A DNA stretch of 40,192 bases, from positions 1 through 40,192 of the forward strand of contig JAPMTR010000084.1 in the NCBI GenBank assembly GCA_026552975.1. Reading direction: 5' to 3'. The position numbers and the translations under genes were made by a program. Shown here piece by piece: positions 33,580 through 36,135 of this stretch. This DNA comes from Candidatus Methanoperedens sp. (GTDB lineage Archaea; Halobacteriota; Methanosarcinia; Methanosarcinales; Methanoperedenaceae). Below the pieces are notes generated by a model. It was not told where the DNA came from. It was given only the letters and a program-made list of their open reading frames with translations, and searched no databases. Positions within the stretch are counted from its first letter, which is position 1. Each line of letters begins with the position of its first letter.

Positions 33580-36135
33580 TCAAACATCCAGATTCCTTAC
33601 ATCCTTCGCATGCTTCTCAATAAATTCGCGCCGCGGCTCAACCTTGTCGCCCATAAGTATCGTGAATATCTCATCAGCCTTGATGGCATCTTCAAGTGCG
33701 ACCTTCATCATTGTACGCGTTTCGGGATTCATGGTAGTATCCCATAGCTGCTGGGGATTCATTTCACCAAGACCCTTGTAGCGCTGCATAGCGATCCCGT
33801 CGCGCCCTATCTCTGCCAGCTTCTTGTTCAGTTCTTCCTCGTTATATACATAGAACTCAGCTTTCCCTTTCTTCACCTTGAAAAGCGGGGGCTGGGCGAT
33901 GTAAATATAACCCATATCGATGAGCTGGCGCATGTACCTGTAGAACAACGTTAGCAATAATGTTCGGATGTGCGATCCATCAACATCAGCATCTGTCATA
34001 ATTATTATACGATGATAACGCGCCTTGCTGATATCGAATTCCTCACCTTCGCCGATCCCTGCGCCGATGGCCGTAATGAGCGCCCGGATCTCTTCGTTCT
34101 TCAAGATCTTTGTGAGGCGCGCTTTTTCCACGTTCAAGATCTTGCCACGAAGCGGAAGAATGGCCTGGAATTTGCGATCACGTCCCTGCTTAGCGCTATT
34201 ATGGACGAATACACCAGCTGCGAGGGCAAAATTATGTGAGTTTGGAACTTCTATGTCATAAACATCCATTGTTTCTTCAATATGTTCAATAGATACGATA
34301 CGATGGTTGAAAGTTCTTCCAGTAAATAAATCCAAATAATTACGATCAACCACAGAGGACACAGAGAGCACGGAGGATTCCAGGCGTTCTCTGTGTCCTC
34401 CGTGCTCTCTGTGGTTTTTCAAATTATAATTACAACAATCTGCCAGCATATGAGTGAAAAGCCATCGACCATTTATTGGGTCAAGTACCATCTCATAACC
34501 ATTTATCGTTATTCCGGGTTCTTTGTTGTCAGAGAATTTCCGATAAAGAGGCATTAACGATTCATTGGTTTTTACCTCATTTATCTTTTTGAAACTGCCA
34601 TCCCTCATCATAAAGGGATGGTCTGGCGTACAGAAGAGGATTTCACCGTTATCCAGAGTAACTTTTGAAACTTTAGCCGAGGTTTTCGTCATGCGCGGAT
34701 TAATGATTTTCTCTATTCCAATTTTTCCATCATTTCTAATTGTATAACAAAAATGTTCTTTTCCATCTGCTTGCTCTGCTATGATCTCTTTGAAACTAAG
34801 CGCTCGCCCATCTGTAAGAGCAATAAGTGTATCACCTGAAAAACATCCACCTGCAGAATCTCCTTCCACGATATAGATCTCGCTTAATGCCGGATCCTTT
34901 TCCGAACAGTCAGCAAGTTTACCTGGAAGCGCGCTAATTTCAAGGGCGCTCTTTCGCCGTGTGAGTTCACGGGCTTTTCGTGCTGCTTCGCGGGCTTCTG
35001 ATGCTTCCAGGGCCTTCATTAAAATAATCTTGGCTGCAGCAGGGTTCTCTTCAAGGAATTCAGAAAGGCCATCTGAGACAAGCGATTCCACAATGCCTTT
35101 TATATCGCTGTTCCCAAGTTTTGTCTTTGTCTGTCCTTCGAACTGTGGATTGGTGAGCTTAACATTGATGATCGCTGTGAGCCCTTCCCTCACATCGTCC
35201 CCTGAAAGCTTATCGTCGCCTTTCAGGAAGTTCTTTGACTTTGCATAATCATTTGAAACTTTGGTCAGCGCAGCCTTAAATCCCACAAGATGCGTCCCGC
35301 CTTCATGGGTGTTGATATTATTGGCAAAAGCATAGACGTTCTCAGTATAGCTGTCATTGTACTGCATTGCGATCTCGACAACGGTCGTGTCTTTTTGTCT
35401 CTGGAAATAGATCGGTTTATCATGCAGCATAGTCTTATTTTTGTTCAGGAACTCCACGAAGGATACGATGCCGCCTTCGTACTGGAATATCTCCTCTTTC
35501 TGGGTAAATTCGACTTTAAGAGTGATCTTGACACCTCTATTAAGGAATGCAAGTTCACGCAGCCTGTTTTCCAGTACCTCAGGGTCATATTCAAGTGTTT
35601 CAAAAATCGTTTTATCCGGTTTAAACGTGATCGTTGTCCCGCTGGTGGTAGCTTCTCCTATTGTTGTTACCGGGGTTACGGGTTTTCCGCATTCGTATCT
35701 TTGCTTGTAGAGCTTGCCATCCCTCCGTACTTCCACCTCAAGCCATTCAGATAGTGCGTTAACTGCTGAAACACCTACGCCGTGAAGACCGCCTGAAACC
35801 TTGTATGCATTATTATCGAATTTCCCGCCTGCATGGAGCATCGTAAGTACGACTTCTAGCGCAGATTTTTGGAATTTCGGTATGACTTCTATTGGTATAC
35901 CTCTTCCATTATCCACGACTTTTACACTGTGATCAGGTCTGATTATCACATCAATATTCGTACAATACCCTGCCAGAGCCTCATCAATGCTGTTGTCCAC
36001 GACTTCATAAACAAGATGGTGGAGCCCTCGTGCATCCGTACTTCCGATATACATGCTTGGACGTTTGCGTACTGCTTCAAGTCCTTCCAGCACCTGGATC
36101 TGTCCTGCCCCATATTCTGTATTTACGTCATTCAT
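33580..36135 (-). CDS. gyrB: DNA gyrase subunit B with in-frame intein
   Basis: The ATPase subunit of gyrase. The precursor has 851 residues; without the intein (431-646) it has 635, a normal GyrB. The GHKL ATPase domain shows [20 protein letters not shown] (30-48), DNGRGIP and GGLHGVGVS, the transducer domain follows, then TOPRIM with the catalytic Glu in IVEGDSAGG (Glu424), where the intein interrupts before [31 protein letters not shown] and the C-terminal [17 protein letters not shown] complete the protein. First gene of the gyrB-TPR-gyrA unit. Confidence 0.98.
34198..34845 (-). other. GyrB intein (216 residues)
   Basis: Coding region of a class 1 intein, residues 431-646, inserted in the TOPRIM motif between EGDSAGG and SAKQGR, the site also used by known GyrB inteins. 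Block A is [20 protein letters not shown] (Cys431), block [14 protein letters not shown], and the end reads VYDIEV then [13 protein letters not shown] with extein Ser647. The middle keeps [14 protein letters not shown], aligned with [11 protein letters not shown] of the GyrA intein, but the HNH pattern is gone. Residues about 574-596 are encoded by a palindromic repeat. It should splice but not home. Confidence 0.93.
34350..34414. repeat. Palindromic repeat element inside the GyrB intein
   Basis: A 65-base element with a perfect 18-base inverted repeat (34360-34377 with 34396-34413) and outer CCACAGAG/CTCTGTGG ends, built from modules CCACAGAG, GACACAGAG and AGCACGGAG. It is translated in frame as about 23 residues of the intein (reading [20 protein letters not shown]) without breaking the frame. 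It is unrelated in sequence to the repeat at 32739-32811. Confidence 0.85.

Follow-up and report, generated by a model that had tools for sequence, protein, structure and literature searches.

The stretch of DNA analyzed here (the window: 40,192 nt, positions 1 to 40,192 of contig JAPMTR010000084.1, assembly GCA_026552975.1) comes from a 2.57-Mb draft genome of Candidatus Methanoperedens sp., called G000 below. It contains a gyrB gene interrupted by a single intein, with a palindromic DNA repeat lying in frame inside the intein (Table 1). The gene as a whole scores 1015 bits against NCBIfam TIGR01059 (cut-off 882), and relatives are found at E ≤ 1e-40 in 28 of 31 genomes of the genus. The neighboring gyrA has an intein of its own, so that both gyrase subunits are intein-bearing. 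Elsewhere in the window, two overlapping ORFs at 5056-5753 resemble, by eye, what we take to be tandem CrcB-type fluoride exporters.

Table 1. Positions of the gyrase inteins and of the palindromic repeat in the window.
Feature	Position	Strand	Basis or remark
gyrB with one intein	33580..36135	-	851-aa ORF; TIGR01059 above cut-off
GyrB intein, 216 aa, CFSGDT...GVFVHN/S	34198..34845	-	Pfam Intein_splicing; fold match
Intein N-terminal splicing part, residues 1-138	34432..34845	-	pLDDT; C1, T73, D75, H76 invariant
Disordered intein loop, residues 139-177	34315..34431	-	Single AlphaFold segment with pLDDT under 50
Palindromic core of mobile element, 75 bp	34345..34419	+	Minus strand codes intein residues 143-167
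Left arm, 18 nt, perfect	34360..34377	+	
Right arm, 18 nt, perfect	34396..34413	+	
Probable remnant of the element's non-palindromic flank	34312..34344	-	Residues 168-178
Intein C-terminal splicing part, residues 179-216	34198..34311	-	pLDDT; H204, H215, N216 invariant
GyrA intein, 244 aa, no element	31534..32265	-	Comparison only

The preliminary description of this locus held that the splicing blocks on both sides of the repeat are intact, and they are: Pfam Intein_splicing matches the intein with an E-value of 2.8e-19, the NCBIfam models for intein N- and C-terminal regions also match within gyrB, and C1, a TxxH motif, block F, and the HN/S junction are all present. The residues listed as invariant in Table 1 are so throughout a 30-row intein alignment. 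An AlphaFold model of the intein (30 aligned rows) has a mean pLDDT of 82.5, with ten-residue means of 87-97 over residues 1-130 and 91-96 over residues 181-216; the low-confidence segment consists of the element-coded insert and a few neighboring residues. The model matches solved inteins, best of all the NpuDnaE intein (Foldseek E 1.2e-8). The predicted structure is thus that of an ordinary splicing domain interrupted by a single disordered loop, and since the intein should excise itself, mature GyrB would be free of the insert.

At the DNA level, an in-frame hairpin with 18-nt arms had been described at this position. The arms and the open frame stand, while the extent proves to be 75 bp, or 25 codons, rather than 65 bases. 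Longer arms of 28 nt (34348-34375 and 34389-34416) are 79% complementary. Folded as single-stranded DNA, the hairpin has a predicted energy of -23.8 kcal/mol, which none of 200 dinucleotide shuffles equals (z -6.56). The core is built of heptamers, CACAGAG (and CACGGAG), each with a two-base spacer, three on each side of the loop; the resulting unit period of 9 bp amounts to three codons.

A palindromic repeat family in Methanoperedens

The core recurs widely. With an 85-bp query, G000 yields 8 matches, the intein copy included, and a pattern based on the heptamers finds 16 matches there against 1 for the reversed control. A covariance model (R1) built from 7 copies has matches at E ≤ 0.01 in all 31 genus genomes, at 4 to 131 per genome, a count in which both strands of one palindrome may figure. 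With the own genome included, R1 has matches at 1e-5 in 44 of the 60 genomes searched from the order, and at 1e-7 in 9 of 100 drawn across the phylum. Four stretches of viral contigs match the heptamer pattern exactly. The expectation of a multi-copy element was thus borne out, and the single-copy outcome that would have spoken for ordinary coding sequence was not what was found.

For further comparison 140 copies were aligned, being the high-scoring R1 matches among those listed plus the own-genome copies; this is a non-random sample. Opposite-strand duplicates, L165 (the same copies as L081), and the weak matches L002:1593, L152:1371, and L199:956 were dropped before counting, while three sister-type copies with the heptamer CGCAAAG (L157:869, L170:749, and L198:1357) were kept. 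Sister palindromes that keep the 9-bp period but are built of different heptamers (CACGGAT, CGCAAAG) occur near or among the CACAGAG copies, in G000 at C102:20674 and C117:109127; they and the CACAGAG family may constitute one superfamily.

The best-defined family is about 146 bp long, with an outer terminal inverted repeat (GAGACTTTTTAATTT.TTCTGG), the 75-bp inner palindrome, and an 8-bp target duplication; its outer ends, GAGAC...GTCTC, are terminal inverted repeats such as define MITEs. When these ends were sought in the 140 copies by loose matching (up to 6 differences), both were found in 15. In 10 of these 15 the 8-bp flanks are alike at 6 or more positions, 3 being identical, against a shuffle mean of 0.80 and no case of 10 in 5000 shuffles. 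Matching 8-bp direct repeats at this frequency are a signature of transposition, and mark the element as MITE-like. Some copies have flanks in common, and one 75-bp core is common to several outer-flank families (copies with other flanks include L185, L186, L189, and L199; L103, L128, and L152; and L094 and L125), some of them with different inverted ends, e.g., AGAGCCTATCCGAAAA...TTTTCGGATAGG. It looks as if the core had moved between elements.

An autonomous partner was sought through the family end, allowing up to 3 mismatches, in the 31 genomes: 26 have matches, while the control gave 3 matches in all. Thirty of these loci were scanned for ends and cores, and 16 for ORFs. Family ends lacking the palindrome occur among them, but no autonomous partner was found at the 30 loci, and the four ORFs scanned near family ends (three of L321, one of L324) have no Pfam match. 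The three at L321 (G026 C128, 269-1582) overlap one another beside a lone family end and have, by eye, the look of a broken transposase. The palindrome would presumably be mobilized by a transposase acting in trans. A possible tie to GxxExxY proteins, looked for in the literature, drew nothing useful.

The gyrB copies are assigned to the family by their core and, in G000, also by one flank: a 45-bp stretch there ranks 29th among 11,472 background stretches in its similarity to the family consensus flank, a moderate result. The other G000 flank (rank 854 of 11,476) is not recognizable against this consensus, nor are the two intein flanks in G017, the second genome with an intein copy (ranks 628 and 3087). 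The outer ends are incomplete in the gyrB copies, and no target duplication is visible around the intein copy.

Most sampled copies lie outside genes. By a mechanical test against ORFs of at least 150 aa, 113 of the 140 are outside, 10 overlap an end, and 17 are inside; a second ORF scan, run under different limits, yielded 17 ORF readings, gyrB accounting for two. All non-gyrB ORFs from both scans were searched in Pfam. Just three copies, those in the two inteins and one in a dinD-like ORF, are in frame between two recognizable protein parts, and in each of these cases a stretch of protein is missing at the place of insertion. Only the intein copies, of all 140, have a surrounding gene that still looks complete.

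The dinD-like ORF (L107, 1109-1735; G017 C67:43024-43647) has 209 residues, with the repeat in frame at residues 31-55. It has no Pfam match, but it matches the C-terminal part of the NCBIfam model for DNA damage-inducible protein D (E 1.7e-49; 168.7 bits, cut-off 242), and its N-terminal residues can be aligned with the beginning of a 285-aa dinD-like protein of G000 (score 51, reached by none of 500 shuffles). About 128 aa of the middle are absent, with the element in their place. Among the other repeat-bearing ORFs, one has a Thiolase_N match on one side of the repeat (L167, G020 C43, about 1130-1260; by eye the thiolase gene is broken, and the family copy has GGAATT on both sides), and one has CBS domains downstream of it (L134). 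In L008 (G000 C33, 576-1577) the copy occupies codons 2-26 counted from the mechanical start of an ORF with a Radical_SAM/LipS1-type match downstream, below the NCBIfam cut-off; this copy may be an N-terminal extension, or may lie upstream of the true start. The L145, L081, and L138 ORFs have weak Pfam matches below cut-offs, and the remaining repeat-bearing ORFs of both scans have no Pfam match.

GyrB inteins of the genus and the number of insertions

Eighteen intein loci were read and 14 genus inteins extracted, L065-L068, from outside the genus, being left out for an unfit motif. Six of the 14 are 435 aa long, with an HNH-like middle segment and no element; Pfam HNH_3 matches one of these at E 0.0026 and a 313-aa form at 5.1e-4, both below the Pfam cut-off. 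Another six are shortened and likewise element-free: G025 (313 aa), G029 (215), G008 (203), G030 (165), and G024 and G014 (143 each). The element is present in the remaining two, those of G000 and G017 (BLZ2), the latter a 228-aa intein common to G017 and the Candidatus Methanoperedens sp. BLZ2 record NZ_NTMG01000078.1. Its occurrence in a second genome makes misassembly of the intein unlikely, and in both copies the hairpin is strong. In a wider set, drawn from named archaeal and bacterial genomes and limited to the best 80 of 116 GyrB-type inteins (70 delimited exactly, and 10 roughly, for which the test is weak), 36 are 435 aa long and only the BLZ2 intein (L232) has an inverted repeat of at least 13 bp.

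The element is preceded by WYN (CCN in G000) and followed by the block F region, in the slot that holds the HNH-like segment in other inteins of the genus. This accords with the suggestion, made from the window alone, that the repeat occupies the place where the GyrA intein keeps an endonuclease-like segment: that intein does keep a longer middle, HNH-like as judged by eye. An empty site had been predicted in relatives, and here the outcome is mixed. Twelve of the 14 inteins lack the element, but none of the genus relatives offers a clean pre-insertion site from which to read the precise unit inserted: they have the HNH-like segment or a trimmed linker, or lack the intein altogether. Between G000 and G017 amino acid identity is 60% in the core and 81% in the splicing domain, marking the core as a fast-changing loop. 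Their respective nearest species, G018 and G020, have no intein at the GyrB site. By eye, the intein-free GyrB proteins of G018 (L203) and G019 (L212) contain about 160 aa inserted C-terminally, and that of G016 (L223) has an apparent, different large intein at a second site.

The two copies may descend from one insertion or from two, and the trees disagree. Trees of exteins and inteins were compared, leaving out the GyrB rows of G003, G028, and G023 (no match), G010 (motif not found), and G027 (in pieces); the DNA extein comparison covers 10 of 11 genomes, with G002 out of the set.

One possibility, to which we give about an even chance as a whole, is a single ancestral insertion kept by descent, with the palindrome conserved as DNA (through hairpin function, correction of one arm by the other, or conversion by other copies) and the whole intein lost in G018, G002, and G020. 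The junction is shared, the spacing of nine bases from the WYN or CCN codons to the palindrome being identical in G000 and G017 (by eye). So are rare variants, by which the two copies are mutual best partners, at rank 12 of 1889 cross-genome pairs. The GyrB protein tree is compatible as well, grouping G000 and G017 with intein-free relatives and leaving G021 and G013 outside (91/82). Each of these points also counts against separate origins. Within the family, the spacer pair NN1/NN2' is complementary in 27 of 64 copies, where shuffling gives a mean of 17.3 and reaches this figure once in 2000 trials, an excess to be expected if the arms change together; this test ignores the relatedness of copies, however, and none of the other three spacer pairs is clearly above expectation (31, 0, and 1 copies out of 64, where shuffling gives means of 28.2, 1.8, and 0.2). 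A single insertion also requires that the element-free G021 and G013 inteins descend from outside or regained an HNH segment, and the DNA trees favor the opposite view, though they do not reject a single insertion.

A second possibility, to our minds a weaker contender, is that members of the same family entered the same GyrB intein slot independently in the G000 and G017 lines, with similar trimming afterwards. The intein DNA tree places the element-free, HNH-bearing G021 with G017 (94/97), and a tree constrained to keep G000 with G017 is 7.97 log units worse (AU p 0.093). The extein DNA tree has a group of G017, G020, G021, and G013 (92/95), and holding G000, G018, G017, and G020 together costs 12.26 log units (AU p 0.068). 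Synonymous distances agree with the DNA trees, G021 being nearer to G017 than G000 is. Within the intein, G000 and G017 have 2.5 synonymous differences at 17.0 sites in the core, against 67.9 at 110.0 in the splicing domain on either side (p 0.001 by Fisher's test with rounded counts). Their core identity, 0.827, does not exceed the median of 0.84 among 64 cores of 75 bp. Similarity of the gyrB cores was rejected as proof of common origin on the ground that it is close to this family median. Exchange between lineages takes up the small remainder of the probability beside these two readings.

If there were two insertions, the endonuclease slot could be seen as a recurrent safe harbor at the protein level, hit independently in two Methanoperedens lineages, its repeated use being due to protein splicing, which would hide in-frame insertions there from selection in an essential gene. 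We put this forward tentatively.

Interpretation and comparison with known systems

Inteins are usually described as parasites with a single passenger, a homing endonuclease. The explanation that we consider highly probable for the locus in the window is that a mobile palindrome landed in the dispensable endonuclease segment of the GyrB intein, where protein splicing makes the insert tolerable. A MITE-like palindrome of the genus would have entered the intein within the stretch coding for an HNH-type homing endonuclease, which is not needed for splicing; later deletions would have removed the HNH segment along with most of the outer ends of the element, insertion presumably preceding deletion. 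About 37 codons would have been left in frame, separating the N- and C-terminal splicing parts and giving a flexible loop on translation. The element-bearing intein, to judge from its intact motifs and predicted fold, should still excise itself, and mature GyrB would never contain the loop. The insertion could then persist in an essential gene, since the intein would remove it along with itself.

Two alternatives dispense with an inserted passenger that is merely tolerated. The insert might be a functional addition, for example an RNA hairpin pacing translation or a loop regulating splicing. The strong hairpin in both species and the low synonymous change in the core are what such a role would predict, but most sampled copies of the core are outside genes, and a divergence as low as this is normal for the family, so that no selection for a role in gyrB need be invoked; we consider such a role improbable. 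Last, that the stretch is ordinary intein coding sequence, palindromic by chance, would suit a frame that is open and in register with the intein but is scarcely credible and is refuted by copy number, the palindrome being found at other G000 loci and in every one of the 31 genus genomes searched (in the sample, for the most part away from ORFs of 150 aa), and its residues being confined to G000 and G017, absent from the other 12 genus inteins extracted.

A mobile palindrome in this position would be a second type of selfish DNA in the endonuclease slot of an essential gene, and suggests a sheltering role of protein splicing for transposable elements, like that of RNA splicing for insertions in introns. 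The genus also provides a graded series, from 435-aa HNH-type inteins through trimmed and element-bearing ones to intein-free genes, in which intein decay could be studied, and a natural test of how well the splicing domain tolerates foreign sequence.

Several known systems have features in common with this one. The preliminary description had likened the repeat to Rickettsia palindromic elements (RPEs). According to a review (PMC10969869), these are multi-copy palindromes inserted in frame in protein genes and translated, and to that extent the likeness holds. RPEs, though, are about 150 bp long, and nearly half of those of R. conorii are in ORFs (PMC10969869), whereas most sampled copies of the archaeal palindrome are outside ORFs of at least 150 aa and 3 of 140 are in frame between protein parts. 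It is a palindrome without the frequent in-frame habit of RPEs, and on this point, comparing by description and not by sequence, membership among them was rejected.

Prokaryotic MITEs, too, are short, with terminal inverted repeats, 8-bp target duplications, and many copies, and in-frame MITE insertions have been reported in Coxiella (PMC5896051). The archaeal element differs in that its 75-bp inner palindrome of 9-bp units recurs under several outer flanks, and in having an intein as carrier.

Borg elements are described in PMC9879509 as having tandem repeats in ORFs, of a kind virtually absent from host genomes. These are likewise Methanoperedens-associated repeat DNA, read in frame and giving disordered regions, but they are local and tandem, while the intein element is a palindrome with interspersed copies, found in a genome of host type. 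Natural mini-inteins without a homing endonuclease also keep the splicing domain with a reduced endonuclease slot (PMC6801210); here the slot holds a piece of a mobile element.

Among the matches listed in the open-licence literature no report of a palindromic element or MITE inside an intein appeared, which is weak evidence of absence. The nearest published parallel found among them is the “MITEtron”, a MITE in a group I intron of dsrA in Ca. Thiomargarita nelsonii (PMC4853749). In both, a self-splicing element within a key gene harbors a MITE or MITE-like element, here represented by its core inside the GyrB intein, and splicing would remove the insertion. The carrier of the “MITEtron” is an RNA intron; that of the Methanoperedens palindrome is an intein, so that translation includes the insert, and its removal would take place in the protein.
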